From the NCBI GenBank assembly GCA_029267335.1, contig JAJUJC010000001.1, forward strand, positions 310,001 to 374,000: a stretch of 64,000 nt of DNA, read 5' to 3'. Below the pieces are notes generated by a model. It was not told where the DNA came from and ran no database searches. It worked only from the letters and a program-made list of their open reading frames with translations. The DNA comes from Intestinibacillus massiliensis. GTDB lineage: Bacteria > Bacillota > Clostridia > Oscillospirales > Butyricicoccaceae. The translations under genes were made by a program, and so were the position numbers. Below are positions 10,313 through 47,605 of the stretch, piece by piece; positions within the stretch are counted from its first letter, which is position 1; each line of letters starts with the position of its first letter.

Positions 10313-11038
10313 TTACAGTACACGCAGCTCTTGCAGCTCGGTACGGCTGTATTTTTCGAGCACGTTGAATACGACGACAGTGAGCAGACCTTCCGCGATC
10401 GCGAGCGGAAGCTGCGTTGCAGCGAAAATCGTCAGGAAGGTCCCCAAACTCTGTGCAAAGCCGATCGCATTGTGCGCGAACGACATTTCAAATGCAGTCG
10501 TCACATAAGTAAGTAAATCCCCGAGGAACGCGGCGAGAAATACGCTGACCGCCGTATTGACCTTCAGCTTTTTGCAAAGCGCATAAACACCGAAAGAGAC
10601 AAACGGTCCCACGATCGCCATGGAAAATACATTCGCGCCAAGGGTCGTAATACCGCCATGTGCAAGCAGCAGCGCCTGAAACAGCAGGACGATCAGACCG
10701 AGCACCGCCATGACAGCCGGCCCAAACAAGATCGCGCCAAGGCCGACGCCGGTCGGGTGTGAGCACGAACCGGTGACCGATGGAATTTTGAGCGCAGACA
10801 GCACAAACGCAAACGCGCCGCACATCGCCAGTAAAATCTTAGATTTCGGGCTTTGGTCGATGCGTTTTTTGATGGAGCGGAAGCCCGCCACCACAAACGG
10901 AATACACACAATGTACCATGCAATACACCATGCAGGCGGCAGATACCCCTCTGCAATATGCATTGCTGACGCATTCATGCTGAGCATGCTCAGCAGTGCA
11001 ACAGAGACAGCAGCTAAATTAATCGCTTTTCGTTTCAT
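10313..11038 (-). CDS. cbiM: Cobalt-specific substrate-binding membrane subunit
   Basis: The 241-residue protein has a signal-like N-terminus ([20 protein letters not shown]) ending in NASA, followed by [13 protein letters not shown]. The Met-His pair after the cleavage site is the cobalt ligand in CbiM proteins. Further on are [18 protein letters not shown] and several hydrophobic helices. It confers cobalt specificity on the ECF transporter. It is the first gene of the cobalamin operon and lies directly behind the riboswitch. The ribosome site AGAGGT is only moderate, which suits riboswitch control of translation. Confidence 0.96.
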
Positions 11039-11084
11039 TTTTTACCTCTCTTTTCGATCGAAGATTTTCGTTCCGGTTGAATGG

Positions 11085-11164: not shown

Positions 11165-11345
11165 CTATCCTTCGTAGAGTGTGAGTCGTGAACGATCAGA
11201 CTGTTTTCCGGCTTATGGATCGACGCCAGACGCACGCCTTCCCAGAGCGACGCTCCAGTGGCATAGTGTGCGGTGACTCCCCAAATACGGCAGCGGGACT
11301 GCGCGGGATTTTCACCCGACTTCCTCTCTTTTCTTCACAAAAAAG
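11165..11345 (-). ncRNA. Cobalamin riboswitch
   Basis: On the minus strand the region reads GTCGGGTGAAAATCCCGC, then GCAGTCCCGCTGCCGT, GAGTCAC, GCCACTG, CTGGGAAGGCG and finally the B12-box-like AAGCCGGAAAACAGTCTG. These are the conserved blocks of the cobalamin aptamer, in the right order. It lies between a sigma-A promoter at 11366-11394 and cbiM, so cobalamin should repress the whole cbi/hem operon. The limits are approximate because the peripheral stems were not folded by program. Confidence 0.92.
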
Positions 11346-11365
11346 AGATCACTAATCGTATATTC

Positions 11366-11394
11366 ATTATACCATTTGCTGTGCTGTCTGTAAA
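11366..11394 (-). promoter_or_regulatory. Sigma-A promoter of the cobalamin operon
   Basis: On the minus strand TTTACA and TATAAT are separated by 17 bases. The predicted start is near 11359, a few bases before the riboswitch. Confidence 0.8.
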
Positions 11395-34053: not shown

Positions 34054-36174
34054 CTATTTTGGTGCTCCGCACGCATCAATTTCACGCGAAAGCTCTGTAA
34101 ACAGCGCGAAAATCACCTTGGTATTTTCATTGGCTCCCCAATATTGCAAATCTATTTGCAGCATTTTGACAGAGCCACCCCCGTTTTTGATCGGGCAAGT
34201 GCAAACCGTTTCGTGCTTGGTCTCGGCAGTCTGACGCAGCGCGTCCAGTACGACCGCCATTGCCTCACGCGAAAGCTGCCTGCTATATGCCTGCTCTGAA
34301 TTCTCACCGATCGCCTCGCCATAGCCGAAATAATCGTTATAACTCATATTGACCCGCAGTGCGTGAAAACTGTTGTTTTCATACTCATAAATAGCAGCAG
34401 GCTGCTTAATGCTGTTAAATAACAGGTCGATTTGCGGGTCTGTCGACCAGATCGTCTGGCTGATATGGTCATGGTTATCCGACAGTGATTCGACTGGTAA
34501 CTGTGTGATACCGGCGACAAGCGACTCGTACTCCGTGACCGGCATCGGCTTTGCAAAGTAGTATCCCTGCACATAACCGCAACCGATGCTCTTGAGAAAT
34601 TCCACCTGTTTACGCGTCTCAACGCCTTCCATAATGACAGGGATCTCCAACCATCCCGCCATGCGGATGACCAAAGTCAGGATGCATTTATTGCGCACGG
34701 TGTCCGAATCACCTGACAGGAATTTCATGTCGATTTTGAGCACATTGACCGGAATATTTTTCAACGTATTGAGGGAAGAATAGCCGCTTCCAAAGTCATC
34801 CATCATAACCGTAAATCCCGCATCCTGCAACGCAAGTACCGTCTTTTCCATGACCCCGGGATTGTCCATATAGGCGCTTTCCGTCAATTCAAGATTGAGT
34901 AAATGCCGTGGCACTTGGTATTTCTCGACCAGATCCGTCAGTAACTGTACCAAGTTCGGATTGTATAAATTTACACGGGACATATTGACCGAGATCGGCG
35001 CCACGCTCTTACCCTCTTCGATCCAACGATGAAGCAGTTGACACACGCTCTCCCACATATAATAGTCGACCTTGCCGATAAAACCGTTGCGCTCAAATAC
35101 CGGAATGAAGGTGCCCGGCATGAGCAATCCCTTCTCCGGATGCTGCCAACGGATGAGCGCTTCCGCGCCATATGGCTGCTCGGTCTTGAGGTTATATTTG
35201 GGCTGCAAATACAACACAAATTGCTGCGTGTCGAGCGCGTGCTGCATTTCATTGATGATGACCTGTTCCTGCAAAATGCGCTGATTCATTTTCGGTTGGT
35301 AATACCGCAGATAGCTCATGTACCGCCCCTTGCATTCCTTTGCCGCGAGCGTTGCAAATTCATACATGGTTTCGATTTTCTCGTCTGCATCGGGAATGAC
35401 GTAGATGCCAAATGTCGGCTCGATCAGATAATCCGTGTTATAGTGGGCAAGCTGCTGACAGGCATGCTCGACCTGCTGCCCGATGACAGTTTCATCGTAA
35501 GGCTGGCAGATACAGAACACGTCGCCGCTGATGCGTCCATAGGTGCACAGCGGAACGTCACGACTCACGCGACGCAGGAACTCCGCAATGAAGCACAGCA
35601 GACGGTCTCCCTCTTCCTCGCCCCAAAACGTATTATAAATATGAAAGTTATCAATGTCAAACCGTACGAGCGCAAAGCTCTGGTTGGGATGGCACTCCAG
35701 CATTTTATGCGTGCTCATAAAAAACCGCGTGCGGTTATATAGTCCCGTGAGTGGATCGTGTTCATACACATACTGCATCTCACGAATCAGATAAAATTGA
35801 CTGCGCACGATGACATTTTTCAGCCGCAGCAGCAGAATATTCGCCCGATAAGGTTTTGGAATAAAGTCCCAAGCGCCCAAATCCAGTGCCTTTTGCTCTG
35901 CTGCTTCATCTTTTTCCGCAGTAACCGCAATGACCGGAATCGCCGCAAAAGCACTTTTCTGCTTATGCTGCAAAAAAGTATATCCATCCATAAAGGGCAT
36001 GACAATATCAAGCAGAATTGCGGAAATTCTCTTGTGATTTTCTAAAATCGCAAAGGCATCCAATCCGTTTTCTGCTTCGAGAACCTCATATTCTCCTTGC
36101 AAGATCTGCCGCAAAATCTGTCTGTTGACTTGTTGATCTTCCACAACCAGAATCGTGAATTTTTCTCGTTCCAT
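34054..36174 (-). CDS. Response regulator with degenerate GGDEF and EAL phosphodiesterase domains
   Basis: The 706-residue protein starts MEREKFTILVVEDQQVNRQI, a receiver domain with phospho-Asp in ISAILLDIVMPFMDG and Lys in FIPKPY. The GGDEF domain follows (DPLTGLYNRTRFF), but its active site reads RISGDVFCI, so it is probably inactive. The EAL domain keeps AEALIRW, NLELTESAYM, MDDFGSGYSSL and EGVET and should hydrolyse c-di-GMP. A C-terminal PAS-like region (about 590-700) ends the protein. The ATG at 36174 has AGAGGCGGG upstream. The frame stays open to 36267 across a poly-C tract. Confidence 0.92.
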   Translation of the reverse strand: MEREKFTILVVEDQQVNRQILRQILQGEYEVLEAENGLDAFAILENHKRISAILLDIVMPFMDGYTFLQHKQKSAFAAIPVIAVTAEKDEAAEQKALDLGAWDFIPKPYRANILLLRLKNVIVRSQFYLIREMQYVYEHDPLTGLYNRTRFFMSTHKMLECHPNQSFALVRFDIDNFHIYNTFWGEEEGDRLLCFIAEFLRRVSRDVPLCTYGRISGDVFCICQPYDETVIGQQVEHACQQLAHYNTDYLIEPTFGIYVIPDADEKIETMYEFATLAAKECKGRYMSYLRYYQPKMNQRILQEQVIINEMQHALDTQQFVLYLQPKYNLKTEQPYGAEALIRWQHPEKGLLMPGTFIPVFERNGFIGKVDYYMWESVCQLLHRWIEEGKSVAPISVNMSRVNLYNPNLVQLLTDLVEKYQVPRHLLNLELTESAYMDNPGVMEKTVLALQDAGFTVMMDDFGSGYSSLNTLKNIPVNVLKIDMKFLSGDSDTVRNKCILTLVIRMAGWLEIPVIMEGVETRKQVEFLKSIGCGYVQGYYFAKPMPVTEYESLVAGITQLPVESLSDNHDHISQTIWSTDPQIDLLFNSIKQPAAIYEYENNSFHALRVNMSYNDYFGYGEAIGENSEQAYSRQLSREAMAVVLDALRQTAETKHETVCTCPIKNGGGSVKMLQIDLQYWGANENTKVIFALFTELSREIDACGAPK

Positions 36175-42496: not shown

Positions 42497-43324
42497 TTAG
42501 AACGTCGGTACGACCGCACCCTTATAGGTGTCGTCGATATACTTCTTCACAGTGTCGCTGTGCAGCGCGTCCATCAGCGCCTTAATTTTGGGGCTGTTTT
42601 CCTCGCCCTCTCGCACAGCTACCACGTTGACGTACACGCCCGCGTACTTGCCATCCTCGACAGCGAGCGCGTCCGTGTTTGCATTCAGGCCGGCCTGCAG
42701 CGCGTAGTTGCCGTTGATGACGCTCATATCAACGTCCTGCAGAGAGCGGGAGAGCTGCTCCGCTGCGACCTCTGTGATCTTGAGGTTCTTGGGGTTTTCG
42801 ACAATATCGAGCACAGTCGCGGACTGGGTCGGATCTGCCTTACCCTCCGCCAGTTTGATGAGTCCCTGCGACTCAAGCAGCATCAGCGCACGGGTTTCGT
42901 TCGTGTCATCGTTCGGCACGGTGATCTCTGCGCCGTCCTTAAGGTCGGCGATCGCCTTGGTCTTGCCCGGATAGAGCGCAAACGGCTCGTAATGCACGCC
43001 ACCCGCGCTGACCAGCTTGTATCCCTCTTCCTGCACCTTCTTATTCAGATAAGGCTCGTGCTGGAAGTAGTTGGCGTCAAGCGTGCCATCGTTGAGTGCA
43101 ACATTGGGCTGGATGTAATCGGTGAACTCCGTGACTTGCAGTTCATAGCCCTGCTTTGCAAGGATGTCCTTGCACGCATTCAAAATTTCCGCGTGCGGTG
43201 TGGGCGTCGCGCCCACCTTGATGACCTTGTCGCTCGAAGCGGCAGAACCGCTTGCGCCGCAGCCTGCCAACAGGGACAGACTGAGTGCGCCCGCTAAAAC
43301 TCCGGTAATCAGCTTCTTGTTCAT
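42497..43324 (-). CDS. metQ: Methionine ABC transporter substrate-binding lipoprotein
   Basis: The 275-residue protein has a lipoprotein signal (LSLSLLAGCGASG, lipid-anchor Cys22). The NlpA/MetQ fold follows: VGATPTPHAEILNACKDILA, DANYFQHEPYLNKKVQEEGY and SVINGNYALQAGLN. It binds methionine outside the membrane. It is the last gene of metNIQ, 30 bases after metI. The leader peptide upstream of metN independently supports methionine as the substrate. Confidence 0.95.
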   Translation of the reverse strand: MNKKLITGVLAGALSLSLLAGCGASGSAASSDKVIKVGATPTPHAEILNACKDILAKQGYELQVTEFTDYIQPNVALNDGTLDANYFQHEPYLNKKVQEEGYKLVSAGGVHYEPFALYPGKTKAIADLKDGAEITVPNDDTNETRALMLLESQGLIKLAEGKADPTQSATVLDIVENPKNLKITEVAAEQLSRSLQDVDMSVINGNYALQAGLNANTDALAVEDGKYAGVYVNVVAVREGEENSPKIKALMDALHSDTVKKYIDDTYKGAVVPTF

Positions 43325-43353: not shown

Positions 43354-44016
43354 TTATTTATTACGCTTATCCAGTCGCTTGGATAGCCAAAGTCCGAATT
43401 CCTGAAAAATTTGGACGATGACAACAAGCAGGCACACCGTCACGAGCATCGGGGGTGTCTGGTTTCGGTTGTAGCCGTAGTTCAGTGCGATGGTGCCCAG
43501 TCCACCGCCGCCGATAAACCCCGCCATTGCGGAATAGCTCAAAATGGTGACAATGGAAATCGCGCCGCCGACGAGCAGCGAAGGCTTTGCCTCGGGCACG
43601 AGCACCTTGGTTACGATCTGGCATGGGCTTGCGCCCATAGACTGTGCTGCCTCAATCACGCCGAAGCCGACTTCCTTGATCGACGACTCCACCATACGCG
43701 CCACATAGGGCGCTGCCGCAATAATCAGTGGTACGATGGTTGCGGTCGAGCCGATCGTCGTGCCCACGATCGCGCGGGTGATCGGCATGACCGATACCGC
43801 CAGAATGAGGAACGGGATTGAGCGCAGGATATTGACCAGCACGCCCAACACCCCGTTGAATACCGGCATGGGGCGTACCCCGTTTTTATCGGTCGCAACG
43901 AGCAGCAGCCCGACCGGCAGTCCGATCACATATGCGCCGAGGGTGGACAAAATCGTCATGTACAGGGTTTCAAGCACGCCCTGTCCAATCAACCCCCAAA
44001 GTTCAGGCGAAATCAT
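43354..44016 (-). CDS. metI: Methionine ABC transporter permease
   Basis: The 220-residue membrane protein starts MISPELWGLIGQGVLETLYM. It has five hydrophobic helices and an EAA-type coupling loop (GVIEAAQSMGASPCQIVTKV), as in MetI. It overlaps the metN stop by 14 bases. Confidence 0.95.
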   Translation of the reverse strand: MISPELWGLIGQGVLETLYMTILSTLGAYVIGLPVGLLLVATDKNGVRPMPVFNGVLGVLVNILRSIPFLILAVSVMPITRAIVGTTIGSTATIVPLIIAAAPYVARMVESSIKEVGFGVIEAAQSMGASPCQIVTKVLVPEAKPSLLVGGAISIVTILSYSAMAGFIGGGGLGTIALNYGYNRNQTPPMLVTVCLLVVIVQIFQEFGLWLSKRLDKRNK

Positions 44017-45025
44017 GCGCGTCTCCCTCCTCTACATGGACATTCTGTGTTTCCAGATACGCAAGGGCACGCTGTGCCGCGCGCTCGTCCTCCGGAAGCT
44101 GCAAAAGCATCTGCCCATAAGCCTTGCCGTCGATGTTTTTCGTATTGGCAAACATGATGTTGACCGATGCCTTGCATTCAAGCACCATATTTGACACCAC
44201 CGGCTCAAACGAGGAGTTGCCGTCGAACACGATGCGGCAATAGCGCTTGCCGGTCGCGACTGCGCCGCGCTTGCCGTCCGGATAGATGAGCTGCTTTGCC
44301 ATATCGGACTGCGGTCGGGTAAAGACCTGATCGACCGTGCCGACCTCGGCAATGTGGCTCGCGTCGATGATCGCCACACGCTGACAAATCTCTTCGATGA
44401 CTGCCATCTCGTGGGTGATCACGACGATCGTGATGCCGAGCGTGCGGTTGATCTGCTTGAGCAGTGCAAGGATCTGGCGCGTGGTCGTGGGATCGAGCGC
44501 GCTCGTCGCCTCGTCGCACAGCAGGATGTTGGGGTTCGTCGCCAGTGCGCGCGCGATCGCAACGCGCTGCTGCTGTCCGCCCGACATCTGCGCGGGATAC
44601 GCATTCTCGCGCTCACGCAGACCGACGATGTCGAGCAGCTCGCGTGCGCGCTTTTCCGCTTCCGCCTTGGACGTTCCCGCAATTTCGAGCGGGAAACAGA
44701 TATTTTGCAGCGCGGTACGCTGTTGCAGCAGGTTAAACTGCTGGAAAATCATGCCCATGCCCCGGCGTGCTTCGAGCAGCTGCTTCTCGGGAAGCTGACT
44801 GAGCTCCTGCCCGTCCACAATGACCTTGCCGCTTGTCGGCTTCTCCAAAAAGTTGATACAGCGCACGAGGGTCGATTTACCCGCGCCCGACAGACCGATG
44901 ATGCCAAAGATCTCGCCCCGCCCGATGTGCAAATCAATGTTGTCGAGCGCGACGACACGGCCGCTTTTGCTCTCGAACACTTTGCTCATACGCTCGATCT
45001 GTATGATCGCATCTTGTGCTTCCAA
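44003..45025 (-). CDS. metN: Methionine ABC transporter ATP-binding protein
   Basis: The 340-residue protein has Walker A GLSGAGKST, signature MSGGQQQRVAIARAL, Walker B ILLCDEATSALDP and a C-terminal NIL domain (about 265-340) that binds methionine for feedback inhibition. I chose a TTG start at 45025, because GGGAGG lies 7 bases upstream and the length then equals that of other MetN proteins. The frame stays open far upstream through the leader but without homology. Expression appears to depend on the attenuator at 45051-45082. Confidence 0.94.
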   Translation of the reverse strand: MEAQDAIIQIERMSKVFESKSGRVVALDNIDLHIGRGEIFGIIGLSGAGKSTLVRCINFLEKPTSGKVIVDGQELSQLPEKQLLEARRGMGMIFQQFNLLQQRTALQNICFPLEIAGTSKAEAEKRARELLDIVGLRERENAYPAQMSGGQQQRVAIARALATNPNILLCDEATSALDPTTTRQILALLKQINRTLGITIVVITHEMAVIEEICQRVAIIDASHIAEVGTVDQVFTRPQSDMAKQLIYPDGKRGAVATGKRYCRIVFDGNSSFEPVVSNMVLECKASVNIMFANTKNIDGKAYGQMLLQLPEDERAAQRALAYLETQNVHVEEGDAHDFA

Positions 45026-45050: not shown

Positions 45051-45082
45051 AAAAAAATGCGGAAAGCCGAAGCTCTCCGCAT
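45051..45082 (-). terminator. Attenuator terminator in the metNIQ leader
   Basis: ATGCGGAGAGC and GCTTTCCGCAT form an 11-bp stem (one G-U pair) closed by a TTCG tetraloop and followed by seven U in the transcript. It lies between the leader peptide stop and the metN ribosome site, so it would stop transcription before metN. Confidence 0.92.
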
Positions 45083-45138
45083 CATGTCGCAAAATAGCAA
45101 ACGCCGAACAGACTGCACAAAGCAGCCGAAAAGCGTGA

Positions 45139-45234
45139 TTACCGGACGCACATTGAGGAGTGCTTGGTGTGAAATTGGAAAAAACCGCACATCATGGCAG
45201 ACATTCGGCACATCATCGCACACTGCATCATCAT
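45139..45234 (-). CDS. Met/Cys-rich leader peptide of metNIQ (31 aa)
   Basis: The peptide begins MMMQCAMMCRMSAMMC and continues GFFQFHTKHSSMCVR. It has 9 Met and 4 Cys in 31 residues, with eight of the Met in the first 15. AAAGGAGG lies 8 bases before the first ATG, and the predicted transcript start is about 38 bases upstream. The ORF is followed by the terminator at 45051-45082. This is the layout of ribosome-mediated attenuation: stalling at Met or Cys codons when the charged tRNAs are scarce would leave codons 24-28 free to pair with the 5' arm of the terminator. It is too short to compare with a protein family. Confidence 0.88.
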   Translation of the reverse strand: MMMQCAMMCRMSAMMCGFFQFHTKHSSMCVR

Positions 45235-45278
45235 GGTGGTTTCCTCCTTTCGCATCGTTTCCGGTTTGGTTGTGTTTA

Positions 45279-45307
45279 AGTGTAGTATATCCTAGCGGAA
45301 AAGTCAA
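45279..45307 (-). promoter_or_regulatory. Sigma-A promoter of the metNIQ operon
   Basis: Minus-strand TTGACT, 17-base spacer and TACACT. The predicted start is near 45272. Confidence 0.82.
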
Positions 45308-46513: not shown

Positions 46514-47605
46514 TTATTCTTCTTCCTGCAGCGGCTCATCGTACGCGTCGACCGGTTTATCGCAGTAGGCGCAGCACTCGCCCTCTGCGCTATGCACAGT
46601 CAGCATGGGCAGGTAAGGCTCGGTCTTGGTCACGCACTTCGGGTTGGTGCAGCGGCAGCCGTGCACGCCCTCAGGCGCTTTTCCCGGCTTGCGATAGGGC
46701 TGCCGTGACAGCGTGAGCAGCAGCGCCATGCGCGCATACATGCCGTAACGTGCCTGGTCGAAATAGACTGCGCGCGGGTCGTCGTCGACATCCTGCGCAA
46801 TCTCGTCGACGCGCGGCAGCGGATGCATGACGAGCAGCTCGGGCTTGGCGTCGCGCAGCTTGCGCGCATTCAGGCAGTAAATGCCCTTGAGACTGTTGTA
46901 TTCCGCCTCCGAGGTAAAGCGCTCCTTCTGGATGCGTGTCATATAGAGCACATCGAGCATGGGGATAACCGGCTCCAGTCCCGAAACCTCGTAGAACTGC
47001 ATGCCGTGCTCGACCATGAAGCGGCGGATATACTCCGGAATGGCAAGCTCACGCGGCGCGATGAGGTAAAACTGCACGTCCTCAAATTTCTGCAAAAATT
47101 TAATGAGAGAGTGTACCGTACGCCCGTACTTCAGGTCACCGCAGATGCCGATCTTCATGTGGTTCGCACTGCCGCGCCGCCGCAGAATCGTCGTCATGTC
47201 CGCAAGCGTCTGCGTCGGATGCAGATGTCCGCCATCGCCCGCGTTGATGACCGGAACGGACGAATAGAGCGCTGCCGCCTTCGCCGCGCCCTCGCGCGGG
47301 TTGCGCATCACAATCATATCCGCGTAGCTTGACACCATCGTGATCGTATCCTTGAGTGTCTCGCCCTTCGAGGTCGAACTGGAATTGGGATCGGAAAAGC
47401 CCATCACGCTGCCGCCGAGCCGCATCATTGCGGTGGAAAACGATAAGTTGGTACGCGTCGACGGTTCATAAAACAAGCTGCCAAGCACCTTACCGCGTGC
47501 AGAATCCGCGTAGCCCTCGGGTCGGTCGATGATATTGCTCGTCAGCTTGTACAGCTCCCGAAACTCCTCCATCGTCAGTTCGCTCAGATCATTGATATTG
47601 CGCAT
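46514..47605 (-). CDS. pyrB: Aspartate carbamoyltransferase with C-terminal PyrI-like zinc domain
   Basis: The 363-residue protein has a PyrB core (FYEPSTRTNLSFSTAMMRLG, DGGHLHPTQTLADMTTILRR, VMHPLPRVDEIAQDV). A C-terminal extension of about 50 residues carries CRCTNPKC and CCAYC, spaced like the four zinc Cys of the regulatory chain PyrI (C-x4-C and C-x2-C). The nucleotide-binding half of PyrI is missing. It makes carbamoyl-aspartate for pyrimidines. The ATG at 47605 has AAAGGGAG; an in-frame ATG at 47656 would add 17 residues across a hairpin. Confidence 0.93.
   Translation of the reverse strand: MRNINDLSELTMEEFRELYKLTSNIIDRPEGYADSARGKVLGSLFYEPSTRTNLSFSTAMMRLGGSVMGFSDPNSSSTSKGETLKDTITMVSSYADMIVMRNPREGAAKAAALYSSVPVINAGDGGHLHPTQTLADMTTILRRRGSANHMKIGICGDLKYGRTVHSLIKFLQKFEDVQFYLIAPRELAIPEYIRRFMVEHGMQFYEVSGLEPVIPMLDVLYMTRIQKERFTSEAEYNSLKGIYCLNARKLRDAKPELLVMHPLPRVDEIAQDVDDDPRAVYFDQARYGMYARMALLLTLSRQPYRKPGKAPEGVHGCRCTNPKCVTKTEPYLPMLTVHSAEGECCAYCDKPVDAYDEPLQEEE

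Follow-up and report, generated by a model that had tools for sequence, protein, structure and literature searches.

A methionine/cysteine-rich leader ORF and terminator upstream of metNIQ in Intestinibacillus massiliensis: a candidate ribosome-mediated attenuator with counterparts in related Clostridia

The classical amino-acid attenuators are those of trp, his, leu and thr. For the methionine genes of Clostridia, the usual descriptions are of T-box and SAM RNAs, in which the RNA itself binds tRNA or SAM and no leader peptide takes part. Several leader peptides rich in sulfur amino acids, or standing in for T-boxes, have been reported in other bacteria, and statements about the four articles cited here rest on parts of their text. 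In Streptomyces lividans TK24, a Met/Cys leader peptide (metL; CMCRRMC) is listed 5′ of metNIQ on the basis of transcriptome data; this actinobacterial leader has a leaderless start and no typical Rho-independent terminator, and the portions of the article that were considered contain no comparative or functional test of it (PMC8079986). The Cys-codon leader uORFC-8-2 of cysS in Rhodobacterales is accompanied by a terminator and has been proposed to sense tRNA charging, but it involves Cys only, a tRNA synthetase gene and Alphaproteobacteria (PMC8632094). Runs of Cys codons are also present in the leader ORF of a sulfur gene in actinobacterial cys operons; as far as the text considered goes, no terminator hairpin was found there and the methionine operons of these organisms are without conserved RNA structures (PMC1262725). 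His leader peptides take the place of T-boxes in bacilli, likewise a Firmicutes leader where others use a T-box, but for histidine and the hisS family (PMC2965389).

The leader described here precedes metNIQ in I. massiliensis and lies within a window of 64 000 nucleotides, the whole stretch of DNA that was analysed. Like the trp, his, leu and thr attenuators, it combines a short residue-rich leader ORF with an intrinsic terminator and a competing (here predicted) antiterminator; unlike them, it joins Met with Cys, its target is a clostridial importer and its start codon needs the same residue as its sensor. Its peptide is unlike that of the Streptomyces metL by eye (compared with the parts of PMC8079986 considered), and its ORF stands behind a strong ribosome site and is followed by a terminator. 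The initial annotation of the locus knew of no description of peptide attenuation for methionine uptake in Clostridia. Among the matches listed for the open-access literature (most subscription papers were outside the scope), there was no methionine leader peptide for Firmicutes and none at methionine uptake genes of Clostridia; a Met/Cys leader before metNIQ is already listed for S. lividans, and the idea is not wholly unprecedented (PMC8079986, on the parts considered).

Leader region and metNIQ operon

The features of the region are collected in Table 1. On the minus strand they follow one another in the order promoter, ribosome site, ORF, terminator and metN start. The promoter, the strong ribosome site and the Met/Cys-rich ORF that had been read from the sequence initially are all present, as are the UUCG terminator with its seven U residues and, behind it, the metN ribosome site; the stem alone is revised, from 11 bp to 12 pairs with G-U included. 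The leader ORF translates as MMMQCAMMCRMSAMMCGFFQFHTKHSSMCVR. Folded alone, the terminator hairpin has an energy of −19.2 kcal/mol, and six of the seven pairs are formed in the window sequence for the helix by which the start of the leader ORF would be masked. Among the features by which a ribosome-mediated attenuator may be recognized, an ORF with a ribosome site stands 5′ of the operon (its translation being inferred), clustering of the sensed codons is met by nine Met in 31 codons before metNIQ and is recurrent, and an intrinsic terminator separates the ORF from metN in the window and in relatives.

Table 1. Features of the leader region and the metNIQ operon, in window coordinates and in the order of transcription.
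Feature	Coordinates	Strand	Basis
Promoter pattern TTGACT-N17-TACACT	45279..45307	−	Sequence pattern only
Ribosome-binding site of leader ORF, AAAGGAGG	45243..45250	−	Sequence
5′ strand of helix that would mask leader start, AAACCAC	45236..45242	−	Pairs with 45188-45182
Leader peptide ORF, ATG at 45234, 31 codons + TAA, 9 Met + 4 Cys	45139..45234	−	Sequence; recurrence in relatives
Met/Cys codon cluster, codons 1-16, putative stall zone	45187..45234	−	Sequence; stalling inferred
3′ strand of start-masking helix, GCGGUUU	45182..45188	−	Pairing
Predicted antiterminator 5′ strand, AGCACUCCUCAAUGUGCG, between Met/Cys cluster and stop codon	45147..45164	−	Truncated folds
Predicted antiterminator 3′ strand, taking in terminator 5′ arm	45071..45091	−	Truncated folds
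Intrinsic terminator hairpin, 12 pairs including G-U, UUCG loop	45056..45083	−	Fold
Terminator U tract, seven T	45051..45057	−	Sequence
metN, methionine ABC transporter ATPase, TTG start at 45025 behind GGGAGG	44003..45025	−	TIGR02314, E 4.8e-110, under curated cut-off; ABC_tran and NIL over cut-offs
metI, permease	43354..44016	−	NF008049, E 2.6e-58, under curated cut-off; BPD_transp_1 over cut-off
metQ, substrate-binding lipoprotein	42497..43324	−	NF008285 and TIGR00363, E about 2e-63, under curated cut-offs; Lipoprotein_9, E 1.3e-89, over cut-off

The leader ORF ranks first for Met+Cys among the 103 ribosome-site-led ORFs of 15–70 aa in the window (P = 5e-8). The runner-up, a Cys-rich ribosome-site-led ORF at 35120 (+) with P = 1.4e-6, lies antisense within a 737-aa ORF and is probably a chance product.

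The best NCBIfam models for the three downstream genes are those of MetN, MetI and MetQ, each under its curated cut-off, and the Pfam domains ABC_tran, NIL, BPD_transp_1 and Lipoprotein_9 all score above theirs. The genome gave no match to MetE; MetH is matched under its cut-off and CysK is present. Immediately 3′ of metQ, on the same strand, is a BlaI/MecI/CopY-type repressor (PF03965; 41964–42344, minus strand). Further features of the window include an aspartate carbamoyltransferase (PyrB; 46514–47605, minus strand) with a fused C-terminal PyrI-like metal-binding domain that is barely over its cut-off (PF02748, 24.8 versus 23.4 bits; no further PyrI domain was matched in it), and a cobalamin riboswitch (11181–11371, minus strand, 82.3 bits) 5′ of a CbiM-type cobalt uptake gene (10316–11041; PF01891).

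An Rfam scan of the window at gathering thresholds returned no SAM riboswitch (RF00162) and no T-box (RF00230), and control of the window's metN by either element was ruled out on the absence of a covariance model match. Elsewhere in this genome there are 11 T-box matches, six of them over the cut-off, and its sole SAM match precedes metK.

Leaders upstream of metN in related genomes

MetN relatives were collected from 99 genomes near that of the window (43 places among the matches listed, of which 42 were taken in and one was left out), from named genomes (the best 80 of 499 MetN loci, 79 of them usable) and from 196 genomes drawn from the class (30 loci and 40 further places, a part of the matches listed). 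Close relatives, with MetN 79–84% identical, are mostly labelled Agathobaculum. A named relative with the leader is Agathobaculum butyriciproducens DSM 100391 (L033). By eye and alignment, a Met/Cys-rich leader is present in 42 of the 79 usable named loci; L100, which has a short upstream region showing the conserved block of group B, was left out of this count.

Group A (the Agathobaculum type) comprises 21 of the named loci, and 18 of these bear the label Agathobaculum. The leader has ∼22 codons and a core resembling MCMMCGFARFSA, and its terminator lies ∼60 nt before metN. The core is varied in L036, L039 and L049, the leader of L051 is degenerate (MYMASGFARISA) and L034 was left out of the group for want of upstream sequence. 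The window and 21/21 leaders of this type share a −35/−10 pattern spaced by 17 nt. Codon position 3 is the most variable (3.11 versus 1.63 and 1.53 for the other positions; 19 of the 21 leaders, two gapped ones being excluded), and among single-base codon differences the synonymous to non-synonymous ratio is 14:33 in frame versus 10:40 and 13:51 out of frame. Judged from these patterns of nucleotide change, the frame is probably translated, and the synonymous counts favour it only weakly.

Group B (the MRTS type) consists of 21 other named loci, including Herbinix, Lachnospiraceae and Clostridiales bins, and has the peptide pattern MRTS......MCN.MCGMC.MP, in which Met and Cys make up 32%. Across the MRTS-type loci L063–L108, the block GAAUGUGRUGUUUUC is largely conserved whether it is translated or not, and it pairs with the region of the leader start codon.

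Leaders of other wording occur in the window's own family, where two loci carry MMDMEMCMRGMCMF and MMNMEMYMCNMCMF (L010 and L012), four loci of one genus (L027 and L029–L031) carry MCMCMP or MCMAMP, and L028, L195 and L196 carry MCMAMDMARMAMPM and its kin. Five operons begin with metQ: in L021 and in four genomes of another genus (L022–L025), an NlpA/MetQ-domain lipoprotein gene lies ahead of metN and has the leader in front of it, with peptides that include MMMEMRMGMCPMGMCP and MMMPMCMCMMPMCM, and that of L021 (MMSGMMRMMRTMGMRM) is rich in Met with zero Cys. G290, which shares the genus label of the Agathobaculum loci, carries a leader MMCMCCMMCCENRIFGVPCLCLMR, together with a terminator, in front of a second, paralogous cassette (L220), which comprises an ORF without a Pfam match, an NIL-domain ABC ATPase, a permease and an NlpA lipoprotein. 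This leader is Cys-rich (MMCMCCMMCC) and has a foldable antiterminator. The first gene behind this leader (L210/L220), of 216 aa, gave no Pfam match, and a likeness to an M20 hydrolase noted by eye was set aside for that reason. At a second metN-like gene of genome G053 (L194), a Met-rich short ORF MFIVNARMSGRMCMNMLYYAQMLPDRQNMKLL lies behind a ribosome site, and the scan found no terminator there. In the class sample, only L138 (MRVTMRMSVYMLMMSMMMSMLMCMYMC) and L165 (DMYMCMCMSMPCC) pass the strict rule given below (2/66) and L163 passes a looser rule only; the Met/Cys leader is thus a minority device in the class-wide sample. No such leader was found in the one same-genus genome covered (MetN 59% identical).

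Met+Cys enrichment was surveyed over 171 loci (748 kb) in ribosome-site-led ORFs at a threshold of P < 1e-4. Enriched ORFs account for 25/134 in leader zones versus 7/1075 elsewhere, and Met+Cys is the top of 210 one- and two-residue sets for leader-zone enrichment, followed by Met alone (14 versus 7). Under a strict rule (Met+Cys P < 1e-4 with a ribosome site, or < 1e-5), 22 of 181 leader zones pass, the window included, versus six of 2512 other 450-nt windows, and four of these six are themselves leaders of metQ-first operons. Passes by set are 7/36 for the relatives including the window, 13/79 for the named loci and 2/66 for the class loci; the named loci score low because group A peptides are short. 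The loci are related by descent and these counts are not independent events. A chance ORF was ruled out by the recurrence in relatives together with the control over 210 residue sets. A family-wide search of 81 genomes for three ATGTGY words matched nine genomes at 11 places, versus three places for the reversed pattern; two of the 11 coincide by coordinates with known leaders (L215 and L217) and one, L210, is a new leader. Seven others (L209, L212, L213, L214, L216, L218 and L219) were dropped as leaders, having no terminator within 350 nt.

In Firmicutes, the same operon can be under RNA control by T-box and SAM (S-box) leaders. When 80 relatives' loci were scanned with Rfam at the gathering threshold, a T-box or SAM match was present in 0/20 loci with a leader versus 22/60 leaderless loci (11 T-box and 11 SAM; Fisher P = 0.0009 for the exclusion, without correction for kinship). 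Elements scoring under the threshold may be present in the other 38 leaderless loci. Within one genus, a T-box precedes metN in L019 and L020, and the Met/Cys leader precedes the metQ-first operon in L022–L025; either one regulator has been exchanged for the other, or the operons themselves differ.

Terminator and antiterminator pairings

In group A, the counterpart of the terminator is 99.2% paired in a 21-row alignment. An alternative pairing of 15 base pairs, UUUUGCUCGUUUUUC:GGAAAACGAGCGGAA, is 97.5% paired over its cells, versus 55–64% when the strands are slid, and claims eight bases from the 5′ arm of the terminator. Neither structure has two-sided changes among the 21 leaders, the changes in this antiterminator being confined to one side, and the shuffle control is uninformative for both (500/500 as high on pairing); the columns of the antiterminator hardly vary. 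A hairpin at the stop codon covaries strongly (0.533 versus 0.237 shuffled, 0/500). The helix AAACCGC:GCGGUUU over the start region is 90.3% paired in 22 leaders, with three two-sided changes; shuffles are as high in 8/500 cases on pairing and in 22/500 on two-sided changes.

The conservation of group A bears on whether the peptide itself could be the sensor. TnaC arrests the ribosome in response to tryptophan, and a Met/Cys-rich nascent peptide might stall it on a ligand such as Met, SAM, a metal or an oxidant, with the same terminator logic but a signal other than tRNA charging. The Agathobaculum type does conserve a GFARFSA-like peptide tail, and by inference its Met and Cys residues might serve as metal ligands or as sensors of oxidation. 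The codons of this tail, however, sit in the antiterminator strand, which can account for their conservation; the order of residues is wholly different between groups while their make-up is constant, and L021 lacks Cys altogether. We regard sensing by peptide arrest as unlikely.

In group B, the pairings GAUAG:CUAUC, GAUAAG:CUUAUC and GACGGC:GCUGUC link the strand behind the Met/Cys codons to the terminator and covary. An alignment-free swap test was chosen for this group, as the MAFFT alignment puts the antiterminator out of register; strands with their own partners give −10.1 kcal/mol versus −8.1 kcal/mol for permuted partners (0/10000). A helix of 11 bp joins the leader start codon to the later conserved block and is 95.1% paired, with no covariation beyond shuffles. 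This helix and the block, largely conserved regardless of translation, speak for an undescribed riboswitch or protein-binding RNA in which the ORF is incidental. That reading has to contend with the Met/Cys enrichment of the ribosome-site-led frame over other residue sets, with the codon-phase variability and with the fact that RNA sequences are unalike between groups where peptide make-up is alike, and we consider it very unlikely.

Swapping strands across 21 leaders gave 0/20000. With one leader per group the median P is 0.015 (range 0.005–0.054), rising to 0.09 (0.04–0.23) when the genus of L027 is left out, and at one sequence per group the evidence is only modest. Single-sequence shuffle tests of 17 entries reached P < 0.05 for L027, L030, L031, L038 and L163 and were not significant for the window, L010, L012, L028, L029, L035 (P = 0.06), L138 and L165; L063 and L064 have no terminator by rule, and in L051 and L073 the hairpin chosen is not the aligned terminator. 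The predicted antiterminator of the window is not stronger than with shuffled sequence (P = 0.68), and the swap test gives no signal for the window, which comes 10th among the 21 leaders. Its antiterminator is only predicted, on the strength of folding and of analogy with relatives. With this prediction alone and no measured regulation, the terminator might be a plain, unregulated one and the translated short ORF might merely tune basal expression. Such an account leaves aside that Met/Cys codons recur in front of methionine importer operons and that T-box and SAM matches are absent at the leader loci scanned, and we find it scarcely credible.

An antiterminator exclusive with the terminator is found in relatives, conserved in group A, covarying in the MRTS type and present in one further genus (four loci). 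Alignment of the relatives' metN leaders, by which the initial annotation proposed to check a link between ORF and terminator, bore it out: the Met/Cys ORF recurs across genera in unalike sequences, a terminator follows it in the large groups and the antiterminator pairings are conserved or covarying. In the leaders compared in this respect, the pairing strand starts shortly after the last clustered Met/Cys codon, at a distance of ∼2 nt (group A) or 22 nt (window), and is positioned ahead of the stop codon, on it or just past it.

Proposed mechanism and biological meaning

We propose, at a probability of roughly 0.85, that the metNIQ leader is a ribosome-mediated transcription attenuator that senses the charging of Met-tRNA and probably of Cys-tRNA; there are no expression, ribosome-profiling or starvation data. 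The proposal draws on what was observed, namely which parts are present and how they are ordered and spaced, that the Met/Cys peptide recurs, and that antiterminator pairing is conserved or covaries in relatives. RNA polymerase would transcribe the leader and a ribosome would initiate on the leader ORF. With ample charged Met-tRNA (and probably Cys-tRNA), this ribosome would pass the Met/Cys codons, reach the stop codon and cover the strand between the cluster and the stop, so that the terminator would form and transcription would end before metN. At low charging, the ribosome would stall in the Met/Cys cluster and leave the strand free to pair with the terminator 5′ arm, and transcription would run on into metNIQ. 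The geometry of the strand, we infer, fits its release by a stalled ribosome and its coverage by a terminating one. Also inferred are that the ribosome stalls, that the response runs in the direction described, how far Cys contributes and precisely which antiterminator the window sequence forms. The initial suggestion that a ribosome stalled by low Met-tRNA or Cys-tRNA permits readthrough into metNIQ finds its support in the leaders, terminators and antiterminators of relatives. Met is common to all versions found, and Cys is frequent but absent in L021; Met is therefore probably the main signal, and a sensing role of the Cys codons like that of the Met codons is an inference.

For a sensor built on a leader peptide, methionine is an awkward choice: its starvation would, by inference, also stop initiation; severe starvation should block translation of the leader itself as the initiator tRNA is lost too. 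The evidence leaves evenly poised a broader hypothesis, that Met/Cys-codon attenuation is a recurrent, unrecognised class in Clostridia which replaces T-box and SAM leaders at MetNIQ-type importers, arose or was reworded repeatedly, senses both sulfur amino acids and must separate elongator from initiator Met-tRNA, with a start codon held in the 11-bp helix or masked by GCGGUUU bringing initiation into the sensor in some versions. If this is true, translation-coupled control replaces RNA-only sensors in Clostridia and is reworded from genus to genus. The leaders would then be a system for asking how a cell tells a shortage of elongator from one of initiator Met-tRNA and whether the supplies of Met and Cys are read together, and they would provide a simple annotation rule for the sulfur amino-acid importers of gut Clostridia.
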